From the NCBI GenBank assembly GCA_012521675.1, contig JAAYLU010000008.1, positions 1 through 32,990 on the forward strand: a stretch of 32,990 bases of DNA, read 5' to 3'. This document shows, piece by piece, positions 2,413-21,135 of the stretch. The first letter of the stretch is position 1; every line of letters starts with the position of its first letter. This stretch comes from Synergistaceae bacterium. GTDB lineage: Bacteria > Synergistota > Synergistia > Synergistales > Aminobacteriaceae. Below the pieces are notes generated by a model that made no database searches, was not told where the DNA came from, and was given only the letters and a program-made list of their open reading frames with translations. The position numbers and the translations under genes were made by a program.

Positions 2413-2441
2413 TTGACAAATAAGTTGTCATCAATAAGAAT
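2413..2441 (+). promoter_or_regulatory. Candidate promoter with overlapping inverted repeat, for the EIIC-EAL gene
   Basis: TTGACA at 2413-2418 is a perfect -35, with a weak -10 AAGAAT after 17 nt (2436-2441). The inverted repeat TGACAA-N5-TTGTCA (2414-2430) overlaps the -35 and could be a repressor site. The -35 and the repeat are seen; operator function is inferred. This promoter diverges from the dap promoter, with the two -35 boxes about 38 nt apart. Confidence 0.4.
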
Positions 2442-2544: not shown

Positions 2545-4704
2545 ATGGGCTTTCGAAAAGTCGGCGAATTGTTCAATCGTTTCGTGATGAATCTTGAGCT
2601 GTCCACTCCGTTCGCGGCCATCCGGCGCGGCATGATATGCGCCATCCCTCTTATTATGGCGGGTACTATGGCGCTTGCGCTGCAATTCCTCCCGATAGAC
2701 TCATACCAGCGATTCTTGACCGTTGCTTTCGGCGGCGCCCTGAGGAGGGTGCTGGTCTTCGTCCAGCACGGAACTCTGGACATTCTCTCGCTGATCCTGG
2801 TGGCGGCGATCGCCCACGCATACGGAGTGGAGAAAAACTCGTCCCTCAAAGAGAAGCTGAGCCCCTCAATCCTCTCGCTGACGGCATTAGGCTCCTTCGT
2901 ACTCTTCCAGTTCATATATACGGAGGCGCCCCTGCTCACGTGCATGGAGGGCTCGAAGGTGGCCGCGGCGATCGCCGCCGCGCTGGCATCGTCCGCGATT
3001 TTCACGTGGATCTGGGAGAAAAAAACCATGGGCCTGAGCGTCCACTCCGCCGATCCTCTCTCGTTTCACACGTCTTCGCTGGCATCGCTCCTTCCCACGA
3101 TTGCGACCTTGGCGGTATTCTCCCTCGCCGCCGTGCTGTACAGAGAGCTGGCGCCTGGCCTGTTCAGCACGGAGGGTTGGGCCGGAAGCGCTTTTTCAAG
3201 GCTGGCGTACATGGGCTCGGCGCTGGGCAGCGGGATCGTGTTCGTCTTCCTCACGCACCTTATGTGGTGCTTCGGCATTCACGGCGCCAACGTGCTGGAC
3301 GCGGTGGCGGTCGACCTCTTCGTGCCCGCCGTCGGGATAAACCAGGAGCTCCTTGCCGCCGGACTCGCGCCGACGGAGATCATCTCCAAGTCGTTTCTGG
3401 ACGCCTTCGTCCTCATGGGGGGAAGCGGCGCCACTCTCTGCCTGATGGCCGTGATCCTGCTGGTCGGGAAGAGCCGTTCGCAACGGCGGCTGATGAAGCT
3501 GTCGGCCATCCCGTCGCTTATGAACATCAACGAGCTGATCATATTCGGCGTGCCTATCGTGTTCAACCCGGTCTACTTCATACCCTTCACCCTGGTGCCG
3601 GTCCTTATTACGATTACCTCCTACGCGGCGGTCGCAAACGGGCTGGTCCCCCACACGGTAAACCACGTGGAGTGGACAACACCGGTTTTCATCAGCGGAT
3701 ACATAGCTACCGGCTCGATGAGGGGTGCGCTGCTGCAGGCCTTCAACCTCGTGCTGGGGACTCTCTGCTACCTCCCCTTCTTCATGATGGCAAAGTCGGC
3801 CTCCGAGAGGAAGAACGCCCGGATGCTCGACAAGGCCTACAGGATGATAGAGGAGGACCAGTCGCACCTGATACTTCAAGAGGACAGCGAGACGTTCAGC
3901 TTTCTCCGCTCGCTGGCCCTCGACCTTGAGAACGACCTGGCTCATGAAAAACTTGAGATGTACTACCAGCCCCAGGTCGACAGGGACGGCAGGATCTTCG
4001 GCGTCGAGGCCCTGCTCCGCTGGAACCACGCGAGCTACGGATTCATCGCCCCCCAGCTTGTGATCAGGCTGGCCGAGTCGGTAGACATGATAAAAAAGCT
4101 GGGATACTGGATAATCGAGAAGGTGTGCGTGGACGTGGTGCGGATGAAGGAGGCGGGGCACGGGGACATAGTCTTCTCTATCAACGTCTCGCCCGTGCAG
4201 CTCGAGGACAGGCACTTCGCCCAGACCCTGTTGACGCTTCTCGAGATGCACTCGGTAAAACCACCGTCCATCGTCGTCGAGATAACGGAGGAGTCGGCGC
4301 TCTCCCATAGCCCGGTGCTGATCGAGCAGCTGAAGACCCTGGTGCAATACGGGATAAAACTGGCGATGGACGACTTCGGCATGGGGCACACATCCCTGAA
4401 ATACATGCGCGACTACAGCTTCGACACGGTGAAGATAGACGGCTCCATCGTGAGCGGCGTGCTGGACAACAAGAAGAACGCGGACATCATATCCGCCATA
4501 GTCTCGCTCGGAAAGACCATGTCCTTCTCGGTGGTAGCCGAGTACGTGGAGGAGAATGAGCAGCTGCAGGCGTTACGGAACCTGGGCTGTGTTCAGTACC
4601 AGGGCTTTCTCTTCGGCAGGCCTGTGCCCTTCGAGGACGCGCTTGACATCGTGCATGCGAAACAGCCCTTGAAAGGCGAAAAACAGGCTCGCACCAGGCC
4701 CTGA
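2545..4704 (+). CDS. PTS EIIC-like membrane domain fused to EAL c-di-GMP phosphodiesterase
   Basis: A 719-residue fusion. Residues 1 to about 430 form a polytopic domain of the lactose/cellobiose EIIC family. It keeps WCFGIHGANVLDAV (His246) and MNINELIIFGVPIVFNP (Glu330), the His and Glu that contact sugar in this family. About 430-460 is a charged linker. From about 465 there is an EAL domain with every catalytic signature I can check: EALLRW (Glu488), INVSPVQLE, VEITEES, DDFG (Asp609-Asp610), VKIDGS (Lys630), AEYVEE and QGFLFGRP. It is therefore predicted to be an active phosphodiesterase hydrolysing c-di-GMP to pGpG at the inner membrane. No EIIA, EIIB, HPr or EI gene lies nearby and no EIIB domain is fused, so sugar sensing looks likelier than phosphotransfer. 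The ATG at 2545 follows AAGGAG by about 10 nt. Confidence 0.9.
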   Translation: MGFRKVGELFNRFVMNLELSTPFAAIRRGMICAIPLIMAGTMALALQFLPIDSYQRFLTVAFGGALRRVLVFVQHGTLDILSLILVAAIAHAYGVEKNSSLKEKLSPSILSLTALGSFVLFQFIYTEAPLLTCMEGSKVAAAIAAALASSAIFTWIWEKKTMGLSVHSADPLSFHTSSLASLLPTIATLAVFSLAAVLYRELAPGLFSTEGWAGSAFSRLAYMGSALGSGIVFVFLTHLMWCFGIHGANVLDAVAVDLFVPAVGINQELLAAGLAPTEIISKSFLDAFVLMGGSGATLCLMAVILLVGKSRSQRRLMKLSAIPSLMNINELIIFGVPIVFNPVYFIPFTLVPVLITITSYAAVANGLVPHTVNHVEWTTPVFISGYIATGSMRGALLQAFNLVLGTLCYLPFFMMAKSASERKNARMLDKAYRMIEEDQSHLILQEDSETFSFLRSLALDLENDLAHEKLEMYYQPQVDRDGRIFGVEALLRWNHASYGFIAPQLVIRLAESVDMIKKLGYWIIEKVCVDVVRMKEAGHGDIVFSINVSPVQLEDRHFAQTLLTLLEMHSVKPPSIVVEITEESALSHSPVLIEQLKTLVQYGIKLAMDDFGMGHTSLKYMRDYSFDTVKIDGSIVSGVLDNKKNADIISAIVSLGKTMSFSVVAEYVEENEQLQALRNLGCVQYQGFLFGRPVPFEDALDIVHAKQPLKGEKQARTRP

Positions 4705-4834: not shown

Positions 4835-5584
4835 ATGAAGTTGTTTGTGAAGGCTTTACTGGTAGCAACTCTCTGTCTTTTCGCGACGGGCGCGTGGGCT
4901 CTGACGGTCGATGATATCACCTACATGACCGAGGACTACCCGCCGCTGAACATGACCGGAGAGGATGGGACACCCACCGGCCTTGCGGTCGACATCCTGG
5001 CGGAGATAATCAGCAGGATGGGAGGGAGCAAGACCGCGAAGGATTTCCAGGTCATGCCGTGGGCCAGGAGCTACAACGAGGTCCAGAACACGCCTAACAC
5101 TTGCCTCTTCTCAACGACAGTGACCGAGGAGCGCCTGCCGATGTTCAAGTGGGTGGGGCCGCTGCACGTGCTGTCGTTCGACGCGGTCGCGCTGAAGAGC
5201 AAGGGGCTGAAGGCCGACTCCGTCGAGGACCTTGTCGACCTCAAGACGGGAGTCATCCGCGACGACCAGGGAGACAGCCTGGCCAAGGAGGCCGGGATTA
5301 AGGAGATCGACAGGGTGCCCTCGAACGACCAGAACATCAAGAAACTCAACGAGGGAAGGATCGACATCTGGATCTACAGCATAGGCAGTGCTAGAACCCT
5401 TGTGGAAGAGATGGGTCTCAACCCGGACGATTACGAGTCCATCTGGAACCTCAGCAGGAGCGATGTCTCCTACGCCTTCCACAAGGACGTGGACGACGAG
5501 CTGCTGGAGGCGATGCAGAAGGCCCTCGACGAGATGAAGGCCGATGGCACTCACGCGGAGATACTGAAGAAGTACGGACAGTAG
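4835..5584 (+). CDS. Periplasmic family-3 solute-binding protein (amino-acid type)
   Basis: 249 residues with a classic Sec signal peptide (positive MKLFVK, hydrophobic core, AWA cleavage site near residue 22) and no lipobox Cys, so probably free in the periplasm. The mature part has the type-2 binding-protein pattern of the bacterial extracellular family 3 group: ITYMTEDYPPLNM near the start, the LAVDILAEI segment, FSTTVTEERLPMFKWVGPL, and a C-terminal helix region ending DGTHAEILKKYG. The usual ligands are polar amino acids or other small zwitterions. No permease or ATPase gene is adjacent, which is unusual for a transport component; it may serve a remote transporter or be a sensory protein. 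AGGAGG lies before the ATG, with its own promoter upstream and a terminator downstream. The ligand cannot be told from sequence. Confidence 0.88.
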   Translation: MKLFVKALLVATLCLFATGAWALTVDDITYMTEDYPPLNMTGEDGTPTGLAVDILAEIISRMGGSKTAKDFQVMPWARSYNEVQNTPNTCLFSTTVTEERLPMFKWVGPLHVLSFDAVALKSKGLKADSVEDLVDLKTGVIRDDQGDSLAKEAGIKEIDRVPSNDQNIKKLNEGRIDIWIYSIGSARTLVEEMGLNPDDYESIWNLSRSDVSYAFHKDVDDELLEAMQKALDEMKADGTHAEILKKYGQ

Positions 5585-5610: not shown

Positions 5611-5636
5611 GCCGCTCCGACAGGGGCGGCTTTTTT
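5611..5636 (+). terminator. Intrinsic terminator after the solute-binding protein
   Basis: GCCGCTCC-GACA-GGGGCGGC forms an 8-bp stem with one G-U pair, followed by TTTTTT. It lies 26 nt after the binding-protein stop and touches the 3' end of the opposing membrane fusion protein gene. Confidence 0.88.
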
Positions 5637-6873
5637 ATATCTCCACCCGCACTCCGTCCGTCACCTGTTCCGGCGGGTAGATTATCACCATGTCGCCCTC
5701 CTCCAGTCCCGACAGCACCTCGGCGAATCGGCCGTCGTTCGGCCCTGTCTCCACCCTGACCGAAGCCGCCTTTTCACCCTCCACCCGGAAGGTCATCCAC
5801 TCTCCGCCCCGCCGGAAGAGTGCACCCAGCGGCACCAGCAGGGCATCCTCGCTCCTGCGGAGTATGACCCTCACCTGGATGCGGTAGCGGTCTCCAAGCC
5901 TGTATCCGGGCGGCACTGGATCGGTGAATTCGATGCGGACCTTGACCCGCTGCTCCTCCACGCCGAGCGCGGATACCTTGGTGAAGCCGCTGCGCTCCAC
6001 CAGCGTCACCCGCCCACGAAGCGGCCACTCCCCTCCCCAGCCCTCGACCAGCACCTCCGCGCCGACGGGCACGGCTGCCGCGTCCGTCGAGAAGAGGTCC
6101 ACCTCGCCCTCCAGGTCCTCCGGATCGCCCACCTCCATGATGGGCGTGCCGGCGAGGACGGTCCGGGCGCTATCCTCGTGCACCTGCAGCACATAGCCGT
6201 CGACCGGCGAGAGGATGCGGACCCTCTCGCCCCCGCTCTCGTCCCCCTGAATAAGGAGAGAGGCGGCCTGCTGCACCTCGAACTCCGCCATTCTGAGGGA
6301 GAACTCGGCGGCCTTGGCCTCGCGGGACGCCAGCTGCATCCGGCTCTCCGCTATGTCCCACTCCTGCTGCGAGACCCCGCCCGAGGGCATGAGCCTGTCC
6401 AGCCTGTCAAACTGCTTCTTCGCAAGTTCGAGCGAGACTTGTGCCCGGTCGAGCTCCGTCCTGCGAAGGGAGCGAGCCGCCTCCGCGGCCTTGATCTGCG
6501 ACTCGGCAGTGGCGCGCAGCCTGGGAGTCAATAGCCCGGAGGACTCGGCATTCATCGTCGCCAGCTCGGTCTCGCCTGCCTTGACCGCGTCCCCCGCCCT
6601 CAGACTCGTGCGGTTCAGAAGGCCGCTCACGGGCGCGGAGACAGTGTACCTGTGCCTGATCCCGGTCTTCCCCTCCTCGACGACGGATACGACGAGAGCG
6701 CCTCGTTCGACCGCGACCGCCTCCACCTTGACCGGTCCTGGCCAGGCCAGGTAGACCACGAGAGCGATAGCGGCACATGCGATAGCGATGCCCGCCAGTC
6801 TTTTAAGCGTCTTCCTTCGGCCGGAGCCGTTGTCTTTGCTTTTCAACTTAACACCACTCCGTTTCCCTGTCAT
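5635..6873 (-). CDS. HlyD/MacA-type membrane fusion protein (periplasmic adaptor)
   Basis: 412 residues. A cytoplasmic basic N-terminus (KRSGVKLKSKDNGSGRRK) leads into one membrane helix (about residues 24-45), then a periplasmic adaptor. The adaptor has a lipoyl half (APVSGLLNRTSLRAGDAVKAG), a long Ala/Glu/Arg-rich coiled-coil hairpin (about 100-200), the returning lipoyl half (ILSPVDGYVLQVHEDSARTV), and beta-barrel and membrane-proximal parts ending GLEEGDMVIIYPPEQV. Such adaptors join an ABC permease to an outer-membrane channel or to the periplasm. The open frame runs upstream to 7980, but that part is antisense of nothing useful and overlaps the permease; the ATG at 6873 overlaps the permease stop as ATGA. 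Last gene of the ABC operon. No TolC-like gene is nearby. Confidence 0.88.
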   Translation of the reverse strand: MTGKRSGVKLKSKDNGSGRRKTLKRLAGIAIACAAIALVVYLAWPGPVKVEAVAVERGALVVSVVEEGKTGIRHRYTVSAPVSGLLNRTSLRAGDAVKAGETELATMNAESSGLLTPRLRATAESQIKAAEAARSLRRTELDRAQVSLELAKKQFDRLDRLMPSGGVSQQEWDIAESRMQLASREAKAAEFSLRMAEFEVQQAASLLIQGDESGGERVRILSPVDGYVLQVHEDSARTVLAGTPIMEVGDPEDLEGEVDLFSTDAAAVPVGAEVLVEGWGGEWPLRGRVTLVERSGFTKVSALGVEEQRVKVRIEFTDPVPPGYRLGDRYRIQVRVILRRSEDALLVPLGALFRRGGEWMTFRVEGEKAASVRVETGPNDGRFAEVLSGLEEGDMVIIYPPEQVTDGVRVEI

Positions 6874-9227
6874 TCCGCTGACTTGAGCGCCGACAGCAGG
6901 TCCAGTTTCACGATCTTCGCATGCACCGCGGCGAACGAGCAGAGTGTCGAGAACAGCACGTTGAGCACGGTGATGACATAGGTCTTTGCATGAAGAATAT
7001 AGGGGAGGCGTATGACCTCCGTGTTCGCCGAGTCGAGTATCAGCTTCGAGAGCCAGGTGCCCAGCAGAAGTCCCGGCCCTGTTGCGAAGAGCGTGAGCAG
7101 CCCAAGCTCGGTCAGCAGTATAACCGTGGCCTCTCGCCTGGTGAAGCCCAGCACGCGGAGAGTGGCAAGAGACCTCGCGCGCTCGGAAAGAGCGACTCTC
7201 GCGCCGTTGTATATCACCCCGAACGCCACAACAAGGGAGAAGAAGTAGTAGACCACCTGCTGAACCCCGACCATCTCCACGGTCATCTTGATGAAACTCT
7301 CTCTCTCGCTCGCCGCGGCGGACACGCTCGCTATGGCCGGAGCACCCTTGACGCTTCTCCAGAAATCTTCCATGCGGGAGTCGTCCACCCTCAGGTACGC
7401 CCCGCTGGAGGTGCCTCTCTCCCCCAGCAGGCGGCGCAGCTCGTCTATCTCCATGTACGCCGCCATCCCCGAGTAGTCCGTAACCAGCCCGGCGACCACG
7501 GCTTCCAGAGTCGGGCGGCTTCCCTCTCGAACATCGACCAGAACATGGTCGCCCGGGGAGACCCCCAGGGCCTCGGCCAACGCCGCGGACAATAGCAGCC
7601 CCGTGCCCGGCAGGTGAACGAGCTCGCCCTTCGCGTCGAGGATTCGACTGTACCTCTGTTCGGCGGGCAAGCCTGTCACCGCTACGCTTCGCTCCGCATG
7701 GCCGTTGCGCATCAGAACCGGGACGGTTCGAAACGGCTCGCAGTCCATCACGCCCGGAAGTCGTGCAACGGCGGGCAGAGCATCCGCTCCCAGCGGCTCC
7801 ACGAACATCACGGTGGCGTCCTGCCGCCGGCTCATGCCCCACTGGAAGTCGACAAGGTAGTCGAGGCCGTCGGCCATCACGCCCGGGAAGACCGGGATGG
7901 AGGCCGCGAGGGCGAGTCCGAGCACCGAGAAGAAGGACTGCCACGGCCTTCTCTCCAGGTTTCGCAACGCAATGCGGCACGACGGCGAGACCAGACTGTG
8001 CAAGCCCAGCTTTTCCATGAAGGACGGCGCGTAGTCCACCGGCGGCTCCGGTCGCATAGCCTCGGCAGGGGGAAGGGACGCTGCCTGGCGCACCGCGCCG
8101 ATCACCCCCAGAAATGCCACCAGCAAGCTCGCGATCATCGCGGGCATCAGGGCGCCCCAGTCGAGCCTCATAGTCAGAGCGGGGAGATTGAAAACGCCCT
8201 GGTAGAGCGGGAGCATGGCCGACGCACCCCAGATTCCCAAGATACCCGCCAGCAGGATCCCAAGGGCGAGAGGGACGACCGCGAACTTCATATAGTGAAT
8301 CGCCGCCGCGAACGACGAGTATCCAAACGCCTTCAGCTGAGCGATCTGCTCCCTCTGAAGCTTCACCAGCCGCGTGAGCGACGCGCTGGTCATGAAGGCC
8401 GCCACTCCAAGGAAGATCAACGGAAAGAGCACGCCGAAGCTCTTAAGTTGCTCGATCTCGTCGTCCAGCAGGCGAGCGGGCCCATGCCCCCCCCTGTCGA
8501 AGGCGGAGAGCCCGCCGTAAGGCAGCAGCAGCCGATCGATCTCGGCCTTGACATCCTCGACGCTCGCGCCCGGCGACAAGCGCACCGCCAGTGTGTTGAA
8601 CGCCCCCGAAAGCCCCAGCGCACGCGACAGCTCCCTCTCGGTCATCCACAGGATCGCGAAGCGCTTCGGGTCGGGCAGCAGTCCCCCGGGAGGGATCTCT
8701 ATAACGTGCTCGGGGGAGATTGCGATTCCGCAGATGCGCAGCCGCCGTCTCATCCCGTGGATAGTTGCGTCAAGCAAATCCCCGAGCTGAAATCCGTGAG
8801 CCTTGGCGAAGGCCTCGTTGACCACGACCTCGTCCCTGCCGCCGTCGTCCGGTGTGCGCCCCGACTTCAGCACAATTCCGTTGAGCCTTCGGGCGCGTCC
8901 CGCGGGTAGAGAGTTCACGAGGCAGCTCACCGGCTCCCTGAAGCCCGGCAGGTCCAGAACCCCCGCCCCCTTTACCCCCGTCTCCACTAGGGCCACACCC
9001 TCCACGCCCGCAATCACCGGCTCCATGTAGACGGGCGCGCGCTTGAGCTCGCAGAACACGTCGGCGAAGGAGGTCTCCCTGTAGTGCCTGTCCTTGACCG
9101 TCTCAAGCGAGGTGTGCAGCGCCCCGGTTATCACCATCATGGCGAAGCCGCACGCCATCACGAACGCCGTGGCGAGAGTCTGCCCCTTCATACCGCGCAG
9201 GTCGCGCAGGAGTTTGAGATCCAGCAT
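6870..9227 (-). CDS. ABC transporter permease with two FtsX domains
   Basis: 785 residues. The N-terminal membrane anchor (ATAFVMACGFAMMVITGAL) is followed by a periplasmic MacB-like domain, then an FtsX block of three helices (about 270-410) containing SFGVLFPLIFLGVAAFMTSA. A second anchor (SFFSVLGLALAASIPVF) precedes a second periplasmic domain and a C-terminal FtsX block (about 660-785). This duplicated layout is that of large LolE/MacB-related exporters that move lipids, peptides or lipoproteins by mechanotransmission. It works with the ATPase upstream and the adaptor downstream. Start choice is uncertain: ATG at 9227, or a TTG at 9233 two codons earlier; both lie a few bases after the ATPase stop and neither has a strong Shine-Dalgarno, so coupled translation is likely. 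The substrate cannot be read from sequence. Confidence 0.88.
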   Translation of the reverse strand: MLDLKLLRDLRGMKGQTLATAFVMACGFAMMVITGALHTSLETVKDRHYRETSFADVFCELKRAPVYMEPVIAGVEGVALVETGVKGAGVLDLPGFREPVSCLVNSLPAGRARRLNGIVLKSGRTPDDGGRDEVVVNEAFAKAHGFQLGDLLDATIHGMRRRLRICGIAISPEHVIEIPPGGLLPDPKRFAILWMTERELSRALGLSGAFNTLAVRLSPGASVEDVKAEIDRLLLPYGGLSAFDRGGHGPARLLDDEIEQLKSFGVLFPLIFLGVAAFMTSASLTRLVKLQREQIAQLKAFGYSSFAAAIHYMKFAVVPLALGILLAGILGIWGASAMLPLYQGVFNLPALTMRLDWGALMPAMIASLLVAFLGVIGAVRQAASLPPAEAMRPEPPVDYAPSFMEKLGLHSLVSPSCRIALRNLERRPWQSFFSVLGLALAASIPVFPGVMADGLDYLVDFQWGMSRRQDATVMFVEPLGADALPAVARLPGVMDCEPFRTVPVLMRNGHAERSVAVTGLPAEQRYSRILDAKGELVHLPGTGLLLSAALAEALGVSPGDHVLVDVREGSRPTLEAVVAGLVTDYSGMAAYMEIDELRRLLGERGTSSGAYLRVDDSRMEDFWRSVKGAPAIASVSAAASERESFIKMTVEMVGVQQVVYYFFSLVVAFGVIYNGARVALSERARSLATLRVLGFTRREATVILLTELGLLTLFATGPGLLLGTWLSKLILDSANTEVIRLPYILHAKTYVITVLNVLFSTLCSFAAVHAKIVKLDLLSALKSAE

Positions 9228-9239
9228 CCGCAACGCGTA

Positions 9240-10007
9240 TCACCATGAGAGAGAGCAAGCGGGCTCTCGGCTTTCGTTCTCCGTTATCGACTGGATGCGC
9301 CCCGCCGACAGGGAGATAACTCGTCCCGCCATCCGAGAGATGACGGAGTTGTGCGTGATCAGCAGTACCAGGGTCCCCAGCTCGCGGTTGACCTTCTCCA
9401 CGGCCTCGAGGACTGTTATGCCTGTGGTGACGTCCAGCGCGCCGGTCGGCTCGTCGCAAAGCAGCACCTCGGGGCGCTTGGCTATGGCCCTGGCTATAGC
9501 CACCCTCTGCTGCTGACCTGCGGAGAGCTGAGACGGGAAGTGGTCCAACCTATCCGACAGGTCCACCAGGTCGAGCGCCTCCTCCGGCGTCATCGGGTCA
9601 TCCGAGATCTCCGTGACCAGAGCCACGTTCTCGCGCGCAGTAAGGCTGGGGATAAGGTTGTACCACTGGAACACGAAGCCGGTCACTCTTCTTCGGAACA
9701 GGGTCAGATCGCGCTCGTCCGCCCCCGAGAGCTCCAAGTCCCTGAAGAAAAGCGTGCCGCCGGTCGGCGTGTCAAGGCCGCCGATGATGTTCAGCAGCGT
9801 GGACTTGCCGCTCCCCGACGCCCCCAGCAGCACAGCCAGCTCTCCCTGAAACAGATCAAGGTCCACGCCGTCGAGCGCGCGCACCTCGGCCTCCGTCCCC
9901 GGGTTGTACACCTTGGTGATGCCGCGCGCCCGGAAGAGCCACTCCCCTGCGAGGCTCACCGCAGCTCGCCCGGGCACGCCGCTCCGAGTGAGGTTTACGC
10001 CCTTCAT
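9240..10007 (-). CDS. LolD/MacB-type ABC transporter ATPase
   Basis: 255 residues with all ATPase motifs in order: Walker [11 protein letters not shown]-loop [13 protein letters not shown], signature LSAGQQQR (Ala in place of the second Gly of LSGGQ), Walker [13 protein letters not shown] and H-loop LITHN. The phrase TRENV-like TARENV after the Q-loop and DEPTGALD place it in the LolD/FtsE/MacB export group. The longer open frame to 10301 belongs to other reading; the ATG at 10007 overlaps the stop of the upstream Cdd1-like gene as ATGA. It energises the FtsX-type permease encoded next. Confidence 0.93.
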
Positions 10008-10291
10008 CGGCCGGTCCTTCTCTTTCGTTCCTTCGTGTACTCCCACCACGGCCTCGGCGAGCCTCCATTCATGAAGTCCGTGACCGACATGAACACATCC
10101 ATGACGCAAGGGTCGTGACGAGCCCCGGTTCTCTCGCACAGATCCTCGTACATCTTGAAAGGGCACATGCCCCTGAGATCCTCCGGCTTCCGGACGCCGA
10201 GAAGCAGAAGATCCCTCTCCGTGGCCGGACCCACGTTGGGGAGGTCCGTAAGGCGTTTCACCGCGCCGCGAACGACTCTCTCCGGGTTCAT
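10004..10291 (-). CDS. Cdd1-like helix-hairpin-helix protein
   Basis: 95 residues resembling the Cdd1 (pathogenicity locus) family of small helix-hairpin-helix proteins. The HhH segment [20 protein letters not shown] is followed by [20 protein letters not shown] and then [17 protein letters not shown], matching the family order of HhH, LYERLC-like helix and DRCVLYVF-like helix. HhH motifs usually bind DNA backbone, but no function is established for the family that I know of. ATG at 10291 with GGAGGTGAT just upstream, making it the first gene of the ABC exporter operon; it overlaps the ATPase gene by 4 nt. Why a DNA-binding-type protein leads an exporter operon is unclear. Confidence 0.8.
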
Positions 10292-10362
10292 TCCGCATCA
10301 CCTCCCGCAGGGCTGCGACAGCGCCCCGTCCGTATTTCTTTTACAGTCAGCGATCACCGGTT

Positions 10363-17389: not shown

Positions 17390-17460
17390 CGGTCCGACCC
17401 CCTCCGCTCGCGACGCTTCACATGCCCCAATCCTATCACGAATCAGCTCGGGCGTCGTCC

Positions 17461-18222
17461 CTACCCCCTCACTCCCGCCACTATGCTCCTGCAGGCGTCG
17501 GCGAAGATCAGGGTGTCGGTGCTGTAGGCTATGTAGGTGAAGCCCTGCTCTATCCGCGCGCGGGCCTCTTCCACCGTGGAGACGAAGATGCCCGCGGGCT
17601 TGCCGGCCCTCTTCGACGATGCCAGCGCCTTGGCGACCGCCTCCACCATCTTCGGGTGGTAGATCTCCCCGGGGACGCCCAGCGACTGCGACAGGTCGTA
17701 GGGGCCGATGAAGATCACGTCCGCGCCCTCGACCGCGGCTATCTCGTCCAGACAGTCCAGGCCCAGCCGGTTCTCGCAGTGCAGTATTACCATCGTCTCG
17801 CGGTTGGCCTCCTTGAAGTAGTCGGCCACGCTGCCTGCGAAGCCGTAACGCGACGATCTGGTGAACGCCGCGCCCCTCTCCCCGACCGGGTGATACTTGG
17901 CGAAGCGGACTATCTCCTCCGCCGTGCGGCGCGAGTTGACCTGGGGCGCTTGGATTCCGGCCGCGCCGACGTCCAGTATGCGCAGTATCGTGGTGGCCTC
18001 CGGGTTGGTCACCCGCACTATCGGGGTCATTCCGCGAAGCTCGGCCGCTCTGATCATGTGCTGGATGGAGCCTGCATCCCCCGGTCCGTGCTCTGTGTCG
18101 ATTATGCAGAACTCGAACCCGGCGAGGGCTGCGATCTCCACCAGGTCGGGGCTGTCCGTGTTGATGAACAGGCCGAGGACCGTTCCGCCGTCAGCAAGGG
18201 TTCTTTTCAGTTCGTTCTTCAT
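17461..18222 (-). CDS. HpcH/HpaI family aldolase
   Basis: 253-residue class II, metal-dependent aldolase of the HpcH/HpaI (citrate lyase beta-like) fold. Visible motifs are FCIIDTEHGP (catalytic His region), PIVRVTNPEATTILRILDVGAAGIQAPQV, the loop KYHPVGERGAAFTRSSRYGF, ILHCENRLGLD (metal-binding Glu) and GADVIFIGPYDLSQSLGVPG (metal-binding Asp). The closest named relatives cleave 4-hydroxy-2-oxoheptanedioate or 2-keto-3-deoxy-L-rhamnonate into pyruvate and an aldehyde; the substrate here is not fixed by sequence. The frame is open to 18270, but the ATG at 18222 has GGAGGATGA in front and begins MKNELKRTL, as in the family. The gene diverges from the UPF0182 gene across about 100 bp. Confidence 0.88.
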   Translation of the reverse strand: MKNELKRTLADGGTVLGLFINTDSPDLVEIAALAGFEFCIIDTEHGPGDAGSIQHMIRAAELRGMTPIVRVTNPEATTILRILDVGAAGIQAPQVNSRRTAEEIVRFAKYHPVGERGAAFTRSSRYGFAGSVADYFKEANRETMVILHCENRLGLDCLDEIAAVEGADVIFIGPYDLSQSLGVPGEIYHPKMVEAVAKALASSKRAGKPAGIFVSTVEEARARIEQGFTYIAYSTDTLIFADACRSIVAGVRG

Positions 18223-18286
18223 TTTCTCATCCTCCGTTCCGTGTGTCTCCGTCCACTGTGCATTATACATCCGCGTCGCTGCATTT

Positions 18287-18315
18287 TTGACCGGTTGCGA
18301 AAAGTCGGATACAAT
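18287..18315 (+). promoter_or_regulatory. Consensus promoter placed for a leaderless UPF0182 transcript
   Basis: TTGACC (18287-18292), 17-nt spacer, TACAAT (18310-18315). The predicted start (18321-18323) is only 2-4 nt before the ATG at 18325, and there is no Shine-Dalgarno in front of that ATG. Confidence 0.75.
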
Positions 18316-18324
18316 GAGCGCACT

Positions 18325-21135
18325 ATGAGTAAATACGACTGGTTTCCTGACAATGAGTGGTTTCCGGGGGATGAGCAGACTCCCCCAAGACGTCCGGTGA
18401 TCCGGCTACCCAAGGTCAACAAGTGGCTCCTGATCCTCGCGGCGGCAGTCCTGCTCGTATCGCTGCTGCTTCCGGCGCTCGCAGAGTTCTACACGGACTG
18501 GCTCTGGTACGACTCCGAGGGCTACGGCTCGGTCTTCTGGACGCGACTGTTGGCCCGGGTCCCGCTGTTCCTGGCGGGGCTTTTGGCCTTCACCGCGGCC
18601 ATCTGGGTGAACCTTGTGTTCGTGCGGCGCAACCTTAGGGAGATACGTCCCGAATTCACACCGCTGCTCTCATCCAGGGCGGCCGGGATTGCAGTTGGAG
18701 CCATCGCGCTGTTCATCGGAGTCACGGAGGGGGCGTCACTCTCCGCGGAGTGGGCGATGGTGCTTCGCTTCTTCAACGGTACACCGTTCGGCGTGACCGA
18801 TCCGGTCTTCGGCAACGACGTGGGCTTCTACATATTCTCCCTGCCCTTCTGGTCGTTCGTGCACTCCCGACTGATGGGAGCGCTATTCCTGTGTGCAATG
18901 ATGGCGCTGGTCGGCTACGGGGCGACTCTGGCCCCCAGGAGCCGCGACCTGGCCGACATTCACGTGCCCAAGAACGTTCGCTCGCACCTGATCGTCCTGG
19001 CATCCATCGGAGCGCTGCTGTGGGGGCTTGGCTACGCGCTCGACCGGTACGCCATACTCTTCTCGCCCACGGGCGTGGTCTTCGGAGCGGGCTACACGGA
19101 CGTGCACGCGGGGCTGCTTGCGCTCAACGTGCTGACGGTCGGCTCCATCCTGGTGTCGATAGCCCTTCTCTTCACCCTGTTCAAAGGTAGCTGGAAGCTG
19201 CCTCTGTGGCTGCTGGGCTTCCTGGTTGTGTCCAGCTTCGTGCTTCGCGGCGTCTACCCTATGATAGTACAGAAATACATAGTCGAGCCGAACGAGTTCG
19301 ACAGGGAGAAGCGCTTCATCGAGAACAACATTGAGGCGACGCTGCGCGCCTACAACCTGCACAAGGCCGAGCTGCAGACCATAGTGCCCGCGGAGGCGAT
19401 CACGTGGCGCGACGTGGAGGAGAACCGCGACACGATCGACAACATCCGCCTGTGGGATCACGAGCCTCTTCTGCGCAGCTACAAGCAGCTGCAAGAGATC
19501 CGCACATACTACGACTTCTCAAACGTGGACATAGACCGCTACACCATACCGACTCCCGACGGGGGAACCCAGTATCGCCAGGTGATGCTGGCCGCGCGCG
19601 AGCTGGACCTGGCGGGGATGCAGAACCGCACCTGGATCAACACTCGCCTGGAGTTCACTCACGGCTACGGGATCGTCATGAACCCGGTGAACGAGGCCGC
19701 GGGCAGCGGCCTGCCGCGCCTCTGGGTGCGCGACCTGCCGCCGGTGAGCGACATTCCGCTGCCTATCGACCGTCCGCAGATCTACTTCGGGGAGAAGCAG
19801 AGTCCCTACATCTTCGTCGGCACCACGGTGCAGGAGTTCGACTACCCGATGGGCGACTCTAACGCCAGAACGGCCTATAACGGCGCAGGCGGCGTGCCTA
19901 TGGGCACTTTCATGAGGCGGCTGCTCTTCTCCCTCAAGTTCGCGGATATAAAAATCCTCTTCTCCGATGTCTTCACGCCGGATAGCCGGGTGCTCTTCCA
20001 CCAGAACATAAGGGAGAGGCTCACGATGATCGCGCCCTACCTTCAGTTCGAAGGAGACCCCTACCTGGTGGTCTCGGGCGGCAGGCTGGTCTGGATGATG
20101 GACGGCTACACGGTCGCCAACAGCTACCCCTACTCTCAGCCGGTAGTCCTGGGCCGCGGCCGCGCGGTGAACTACATCAGGAACAGCGTCAAGGCCACGG
20201 TGGATGCGTACGACGGAACCATGACCTTCTACGCCGCCGACCCGGAGGACCCGGTTCTTCGCGCGTGGAGCGGCATCTTCCCCGGCGTGTTCAGGCCCTT
20301 CTCCGAGATGAAGCAGGGTCTGAAGGAGCACCTTCGCTACCCGCAGGACCTGTTCAACATACAGAGCGAGATATACCGCACCTATCACATGACCGACGCG
20401 AACACCTTCTACAACAAGGAGGACGTGTGGGACAGGATGGGCGCGGGCGAATCCCGCTCCTCGGCGCCGGAGGCCTACTATGTCAACATGCGCCTCGCCG
20501 GCTCGGACATCGCCGAGTTCGCCCTGATCTCCCCCTTCATGCCGGTGAGCAGGAACAATATGATCGCATGGATGGCCGGGAGGTCGGACGGAGAGAACTA
20601 CGGCAAGCTACTGGTCTACCAGTTCCCTAAGCAGACCCTGATCTACGGCCCGGCGCAGGTGGAGGCTCTGACCAACCAGAACAGCGAGATCTCCGCCCAG
20701 CTGGCCCTGTGGAGTTCGCGGGGAACGGCGGTCATCCGAGGCAATATGACGGTTGTTCCGGTTGGGGAAGGTCTGCTCTACGTGCAGCCTCTCTACCTGA
20801 GGGCGGAGAACAGCGAGCTGCCGGAGCTTCGCCGGGTGATCACCTCCACCGGAGGCAGGGTGGTATGGGGCGAGACTCTGGAGGACTCGCTGAAGCGGCT
20901 GCTGTCGCATCCGGAGACGGGCCTAGGCAGGGCGGACGACCCTGAGATGCCAACCCGCCCGGACGTGCCGCGAACCGAGCCGCGCTCCGACGACGGTACT
21001 CTGTCCGGCCTCGCGGCCGAGGCCATGAAGCGCTGGGACGACTCGCAGGAGGCCCTGCGCAGGGGCGACTGGGAGGGCTACGGCAGGGAGATGAGCGAAC
21101 TTGAGCTGATACTGCGCGAGATGACGGACCGCTAG
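18325..21135 (+). CDS. UPF0182 family integral membrane protein
   Basis: 936 residues. The N-terminal third has about seven membrane helices, the first at about 30-52 (WLLILAAAVLLVSLLLPAL), and family signatures DWLWYDSEGYGSVFWTR, FGNDVGFYIFSLPFWSFV and LDRYAILFSPTGVVFGAGYTD. The remaining two thirds form a large domain outside the membrane, with KRFIENNIEATLRAYNL, FTHGYGIVMNPVNE, IYFGEKQSPYIFVGTTV and SEIYRTYHMTDANTFYNKED. The acidic tail is about 50 residues longer than the last conserved block. The family is widespread in actinobacteria, clostridia and Synergistota but its molecular function is, to my knowledge, unknown. The frame is open far upstream (to 17422), but that part is antisense to the aldolase; ATG at 18325 starts MSKYDWFPDNEWFPG. 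Confidence 0.92.
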   Translation: MSKYDWFPDNEWFPGDEQTPPRRPVIRLPKVNKWLLILAAAVLLVSLLLPALAEFYTDWLWYDSEGYGSVFWTRLLARVPLFLAGLLAFTAAIWVNLVFVRRNLREIRPEFTPLLSSRAAGIAVGAIALFIGVTEGASLSAEWAMVLRFFNGTPFGVTDPVFGNDVGFYIFSLPFWSFVHSRLMGALFLCAMMALVGYGATLAPRSRDLADIHVPKNVRSHLIVLASIGALLWGLGYALDRYAILFSPTGVVFGAGYTDVHAGLLALNVLTVGSILVSIALLFTLFKGSWKLPLWLLGFLVVSSFVLRGVYPMIVQKYIVEPNEFDREKRFIENNIEATLRAYNLHKAELQTIVPAEAITWRDVEENRDTIDNIRLWDHEPLLRSYKQLQEIRTYYDFSNVDIDRYTIPTPDGGTQYRQVMLAARELDLAGMQNRTWINTRLEFTHGYGIVMNPVNEAAGSGLPRLWVRDLPPVSDIPLPIDRPQIYFGEKQSPYIFVGTTVQEFDYPMGDSNARTAYNGAGGVPMGTFMRRLLFSLKFADIKILFSDVFTPDSRVLFHQNIRERLTMIAPYLQFEGDPYLVVSGGRLVWMMDGYTVANSYPYSQPVVLGRGRAVNYIRNSVKATVDAYDGTMTFYAADPEDPVLRAWSGIFPGVFRPFSEMKQGLKEHLRYPQDLFNIQSEIYRTYHMTDANTFYNKEDVWDRMGAGESRSSAPEAYYVNMRLAGSDIAEFALISPFMPVSRNNMIAWMAGRSDGENYGKLLVYQFPKQTLIYGPAQVEALTNQNSEISAQLALWSSRGTAVIRGNMTVVPVGEGLLYVQPLYLRAENSELPELRRVITSTGGRVVWGETLEDSLKRLLSHPETGLGRADDPEMPTRPDVPRTEPRSDDGTLSGLAAEAMKRWDDSQEALRRGDWEGYGREMSELELILREMTDR

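Follow-up and report, generated by a model that had tools for sequence, protein, structure and literature searches.

If the EIIC domain encoded at this locus were still a sugar permease, what would it be doing in the same polypeptide as an enzyme of c-di-GMP breakdown? The window, by which we mean the whole 32,990-nt stretch of DNA that was analyzed, contains at positions 2545..4704 of the + strand an exact open reading frame with an ATG start, whose 719-aa product (P0001) consists in the Pfam scan of a PTS_EIIC domain (PF02378; 2623..3600, +; residues 27-352; 104.8 bits against a cut-off of 30.7) and an EAL domain (PF00563; 3922..4623, +; residues 460-693; 222 bits against a cut-off of 31.3), with no further domain. 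An earlier note on this DNA had read the protein as a membrane receptor in which sugar binding to a transporter fold controls c-di-GMP breakdown, and had remarked that it lacks an EIIB domain and has no PTS genes nearby. Both remarks hold: Pfam found no EIIB in the fusion and no PTS protein among 19 other open reading frames of the window that were scanned. For the EIIC half, the nearest family is lactose/cellobiose/diacetylchitobiose (NCBIfam lacE, TIGR00410), with 232.3 bits, a near miss just below the cut-off of 236; since some other fusions exceed that value, the cut-off by itself separates nothing. Upstream of the gene lies a promoter-like site (TTGACA-17-AAGAAT; 2413..2441, +; a consensus match only), the 271-nt leader is no more stably folded than its shuffles (z = -1.28), and Rfam returned no match in the window.

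To judge whether the EIIC half could still recognize a sugar requires a structural reference, and the sole solved relative to be recovered at a significant score is ChbC of Bacillus cereus, an N,N'-diacetylchitobiose EIIC (3qnq; phmmer E = 1.1e-49), with which the fusion aligns over residues 23-415. As the earlier note had claimed, the sugar-contacting His246 and Glu330 are kept: they correspond to H250 and E334 in ChbC, the two residues named as conserved and sugar-coordinating in the accessible text of a 2024 paper on a glucose permease structure (PMC11393339). W245, W382, N331 and D290 of ChbC are likewise the same residues in P0001. Two short stretches hold parts of this site, W241 to G247 (3265..3285, +), which includes W241 and H246, and N327-I-N-E330 (3523..3534, +), which is followed by L331 where most permeases have a proline after the glutamate.

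These residues were followed across 79 distinct fusions besides P0001, taken from the loci of a contig scan and from Synergistales relatives, and admitted if their BLAST match covered the query from residue 40 or earlier to residue 600 or later (thereby excluding L080, L095, L097, L099 and the frameshifted L010/L105). W241 and N327 are present in all 79, E330 and W377 in 78, and H246 in 75. With P0001 included, the pocket is more uniform in the fusions than in stand-alone permeases of the same family: H246 occurs in 76/80 vs. 20/29, W377 in 79/80 vs. 22/29, and N327 in 80/80 vs. 22/29. Such uniformity bears on the idea that the EIIC half is a ligand-free structural membrane anchor and dimerizer, the EAL domain being constitutive or controlled elsewhere. 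The N-terminal scaffold is indeed the dimer interface in a solved EIIC structure (PMC11393339, accessible text), and dimers are the active form of EAL phosphodiesterases (PMC5301497, accessible text), but a pure anchor would have no need of H246, W377 or N327, and we regard this explanation as very improbable.

The catalytic residues of the enzymatic half are likewise almost invariant. The earlier note held that all EAL catalytic motifs are kept, and that an inactive EAL domain would tell against a receptor; by sequence, the catalytic set is complete (E488, R492, N547, E579, E582, D609, D610, K630, E666 and Q686), and no position is retained in fewer than 76 of the other 79, with one to three rows gapped at the later positions. 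The domain also matches the fold of the BifA EAL domain (8arv). The usual form of one EAL motif is DDFGTG; P0001 has DDFGMGH at residues 609-615, and D-D-F-x-M-G-H recurs in 79/79 of the other fusions.

We built a tree of the EIIC parts of 80 fusions (including P0001), 29 stand-alone permeases (ChbC and those of fusion-carrying genomes) and one EIIC-chemoreceptor protein, in which one branch with an SH-aLRT of 95 divides the 29 permeases from everything else, the tree being a quick and unrooted one with some long branches. The two sides also differ in a loop preceding the position of P0001 residue 182, where stand-alone permeases carry the motif I-[KR]-[ML]-P-x-x-V-P-x-x-[VI], which was defined in this analysis, is not a published criterion, and was scored at eight positions. 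All eight fit in 22/29 permeases and in 8/8 named plasmid permeases; the best fusion reaches at most 4/8. The second proline (column 172) is present in 37/37 permeases (29/29 and the 8/8 named plasmid ones) and in 0/80 fusions, P0001 having a leucine. The corresponding putative cytoplasmic loop of P0001 (3019..3084, +; residues 159-180) lacks the motif.

Helix counting and charge suggest that this is the cytoplasmic loop between TM4 and TM5. In the glucose permease, this loop extends to the adjacent protomer's transport domain and contributed to the opening of the sugar site (PMC11393339, accessible text). Because the motif is gone and the pocket is more uniform than in the permeases themselves, the natural reading is that the fusions have kept sugar binding and appear to have lost release or phosphorylation.

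The architecture is not peculiar to this genome. The earlier note had stated that EIIC-EAL proteins already exist in databases, and the domain pairing is there: A scan of genome contigs yielded 79 loci with relatives, 46 in Bacillota, 27 in Pseudomonadota, 2 in Synergistota, and 1 each in Spirochaetota, Planctomycetota, Myxococcota and Campylobacterota, phyla that are taken from the records, several of which, being metagenome bins, may be mislabeled. Rubrivivax gelatinosus has two EIIC-EAL genes in tandem (L101:9731-14260), and in one Synergistales genome (G036; L010 / L105) the fusion is split by a frame change within the EAL domain, reflecting either a pseudogene or a sequencing error.

Whether such proteins could take part in transport depends on the partners that are available to them. 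The earlier note had suggested looking in the host genome for HPr, EI, EIIA, EIIB and GGDEF proteins, and had counted a complete cellobiose-type PTS encoded elsewhere as evidence against a receptor. This assembly of 2.21 Mb (121 contigs, 97.6% complete) has EI, HPr, 18 GGDEF domains and two EIICB proteins that both carry a PF00367 EIIB domain of their own; neither the lactose-type EIIB (PF02302) nor the lactose-type EIIA (PF02255) was found, so that no complete cellobiose-type system was recovered. The host therefore has a PTS and is not PTS-free, which corrects the impression left by the earlier note. The GGDEF domains, together with three further EAL places recovered in a protein search, indicate that a c-di-GMP network is present. 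Across 40 Synergistales genomes, lactose-family EIIA occurs in 0 and lactose-family EIIC in 7, always within a frame longer than 700 aa.

The deficiency is common in the wider family. In 49 carrier genomes of unstated completeness (corresponding to 50 loci picked for spread from the 79, with L079 left out), lactose-family EIIA is missing from 38, and the 11 that have it are, on comparison of the two tables, the same 11 that have a stand-alone lactose-family EIIC (in G042 as a partial frame containing a stop), which indicates that the presence of EIIA goes with the permease rather than with the fusion; since many of these genomes are related, neither 11/49 nor 38/49 counts independent events. 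These figures weigh on the possibility that the protein is a transport-coupled trigger enzyme, which still moves its sugar, with the help of an EIIB from another system or through facilitated diffusion, and whose flux sets EAL activity. An intact pocket, with E330 kept in 79/80 fusions, is what such an enzyme would have, and some hosts may offer a PTS partner, as suggested by a C. difficile-titled genome (G050; L151:810-8758, -) in which a SPOUT methyltransferase gene and a lactose-type EIIB-EIIA-GntR-EIIC-MupG cluster follow a short distance downstream of the fusion. However, with the cognate EIIA and EIIB not found in the host genome, EIIA missing from most carriers and the loop motif lost in 80/80 fusions, we consider this unlikely.

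A further alternative is that the phosphodiesterase responds to phosphorylation, the EIIC half being a phosphoreceiver or docking site through which EAL activity depends on how far the cell's PTS is phosphorylated. A 2022 review, in one paragraph of its accessible text, groups PTS_EIIC with the receiver domains and mentions it as a phosphoreceiver that c-di-GMP proteins rarely contain (PMC8846402), and the general PTS proteins that this would require are widespread: EI (PF05524) is present in 40/49 carriers, and the host genome has both EI and HPr. But EI is missing from the other 9/49, including one, G061 (the home of L057), whose record is titled as a complete genome or chromosome, and both EI and HPr were not found in the Synergistales carriers G005 and G011, which are only about 86% complete. 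Given, in addition, that the protein has no EIIB, the component from which the sugar receives its phosphate, and has lost the conserved loop motif of the permeases, a phosphorylation-driven enzyme seems to us distinctly unlikely.

That the EIIC half acts instead as a ligand sensor would gain credibility if the same module were joined to a different output, and one such case was found. In the Niameybacter massiliensis genome (G071), which also has an EIIC-EAL protein (L075), a lactose-family EIIC is fused to the signaling domain of a chemoreceptor (MCP) in a protein of 782 aa (L165:196-2541, -). It falls on the fusion side of the tree and not with the permeases, it is without the loop motif, and it keeps the histidine, the glutamate and both tryptophans of the pocket. 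That the EIIC module is joined to an output of a second type favors a sensor function, as a single example: among 295 genomes of the same order, with at most three candidates scored per genome, a full-length EIIC-MCP was found only in G071 itself. Two long EIIC frames (871 and 1078 aa) were considered as further fusions and rejected, because no start-to-stop open reading frame above 441 aa covers the EIIC match; regions L209-L211 were left out.

What the sensor might recognize is suggested by the gene neighborhoods of its relatives. In a clade of 17 Gram-negative members (support 100), the next gene on the same strand is a chitoporin in 16/16 checkable loci, of which L072 has its porin cut by the contig end; the seventeenth locus, L090, ends within the fusion. 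In the eight loci examined closely, the gap between fusion and porin is -32 to 63 nt, and the eight porins score 318 to 354 bits against the ChiP chitoporin model of NCBIfam, short of the equivalog cut-off of 750. One porin was searched against the PDB and hit chitoporin structures at 1e-71. At L065 and L067, the EIIC-EAL gene, the chitoporin and a GGDEF protein stand in a row; L073 probably has the same order, by an assignment from BLAST clustering only.

A tblastn search of all loci found no such chitoporin gene in the retrieved flanks of the Synergistota or of any locus beyond this clade, so the linkage is confined to one clade. Apart from the chitoporin clade and genes of signaling type, the flanks differ by lineage, and no common sugar pathway appeared among the scanned neighbors. 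The conserved pocket of ChbC type and the linked chitoporin in relatives together suggest as the ligand a beta-linked disaccharide, most likely a chitobiose-like N-acetyl sugar; for P0001 itself, in whose lineage the chitoporin neighbor was not found, this would be an extrapolation.

In the window, the gene that follows the fusion (4835-5584, +), which encodes a lone SBP_bac_3 solute-binding protein with no transporter permease found adjoining, was considered as an operon partner and rejected: It lies 130 nt downstream and has its own promoter-like site, and relatives in the genus have other genes in this position (191 aa on the opposite strand at L005/L024; 216 aa with no Pfam match at L006/L025), so that it is not counted in the system. 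Further along are an ABC efflux set composed of an HlyD-type adaptor, an FtsX/MacB-type permease and an ATPase (5635-10301, -), and a UPF0182 protein of 1237 aa (17422-21135, +).

How a bound sugar might influence the EAL domain is suggested by an AlphaFold2 model (a single model from a 60-row alignment, with a mean pLDDT of 88.8 and a pTM of 0.83). In the model, the last EIIC helix continues unbroken into the cytoplasm as one helix of 46 residues, putatively a signaling helix (residues 392-437; 3718..3855, +), and is followed by a second linker helix that enters the EAL domain (residues 449-466; 3889..3942, +). The stretch corresponding to F412-Q475 is 68 or 69 residues long in 54/80 fusions and 64 in P0001, so that the length of the linker is fairly constant and its sequence variable. 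The fold of the model matches that of 3qnq with a whole-chain rmsd of about 11 A, which means that its domain arrangement differs from that in the crystal; this may represent another elevator state or a modeling fault.

In EIIC transporters, the C-terminal half forms a mobile transport domain that works against the dimeric N-terminal scaffold (PMC11393339, accessible text). By analogy, the EIIC half of the fusion would bind a beta-linked disaccharide arriving from the cell exterior or the periplasm, and would no longer pass it on, given that the protein has no EIIB, the genome no cognate EIIA or EIIB, and the loop its permease motif no more. Binding would shift the mobile domain relative to the scaffold, as in the elevator transporters, and the last membrane helix, which belongs to the mobile half, would be pulled or turned by this movement. 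Because that helix is predicted to run on toward the EAL domain, the shift could be relayed to the EAL dimer, whose altered contact would change the rate of c-di-GMP hydrolysis. Our guess is that sugar activates hydrolysis, which is only slightly likelier than the reverse.

The separate EIIC clade, the lost loop motif, the carriers without cognate PTS proteins and the adjoining chitoporin in one clade all support the receptor reading of the earlier note. We think it probable that the protein is a PTS-independent membrane receptor that arose from a retired sugar permease, and in which a chitobiose-like sugar would gate a c-di-GMP phosphodiesterase. With rather less than even confidence, the reading may be widened to EIIC-EAL proteins at large, which could be old PTS-independent receptors for chitooligosaccharides: permeases that gave up the release and phosphorylation side and kept the pocket, that were mostly coupled to c-di-GMP breakdown, with a chemoreceptor as the output in at least one bacterium, and that in one Gram-negative clade form a cassette with their own outer-membrane chitoporin and, at some loci, a diguanylate cyclase, such that attachment and motility would be under the direct control of chitin fragments.

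A sugar signal is known for only a few c-di-GMP phosphodiesterases. Should the receptor reading prove true, EIIC can act as a direct sugar sensor without a phosphorelay, an elevator-type transporter has been turned into a receptor for a specific class of ligand, there is a readable route from chitin fragments to the decision to attach or to swim, and the annotation of EIIC-EAL proteins as PTS transporters needs to be corrected. Our literature search, which lay outside most subscription papers, found no functional study of an EIIC-EAL protein and no binding or enzyme data for any member; a C. difficile member may already be published, and a census of c-di-GMP proteins in that species reportedly lists EAL proteins.

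Each half of the fusion has well-characterized counterparts. The EIIC half shares its fold and sugar site with ChbC, but ChbC is a stand-alone permease that carries the loop motif (IKMPETVPPAV), whereas the fusion is without the motif and bears an EAL domain. In its EAL fold and catalytic residues the protein resembles BifA (8arv), MucR (5m1t) and DosP, none of which, to our knowledge, has an EIIC sensor. The reuse of a transporter fold as a receptor has precedents in transporter-fused sensors such as CbrA and in transceptors, which involve other transporter families and other outputs. A related case is the interaction of EIIA-Glc with PdeS in V. cholerae, which likewise ties the state of sugar supply to c-di-GMP breakdown (PMC6877527, PMC8846402; accessible text); however, EIIA-Glc is a soluble PTS protein acting by its phosphorylation state, whereas the EIIC-EAL sensor is fused to its enzyme, sits in the membrane, and is encoded even in some genomes without EI. 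RmcA of P. aeruginosa, in which an SBP_bac_3 sensor responds to L-arginine, is likewise a nutrient-sensing phosphodiesterase (PMC8846402, accessible text), but its sensor is a periplasmic binding domain and that of the EIIC-EAL proteins is a transporter fold. We accordingly class the EIIC-EAL proteins as nutrient-sensing phosphodiesterases, a known kind, with a sensor derived from a transporter as the new part.
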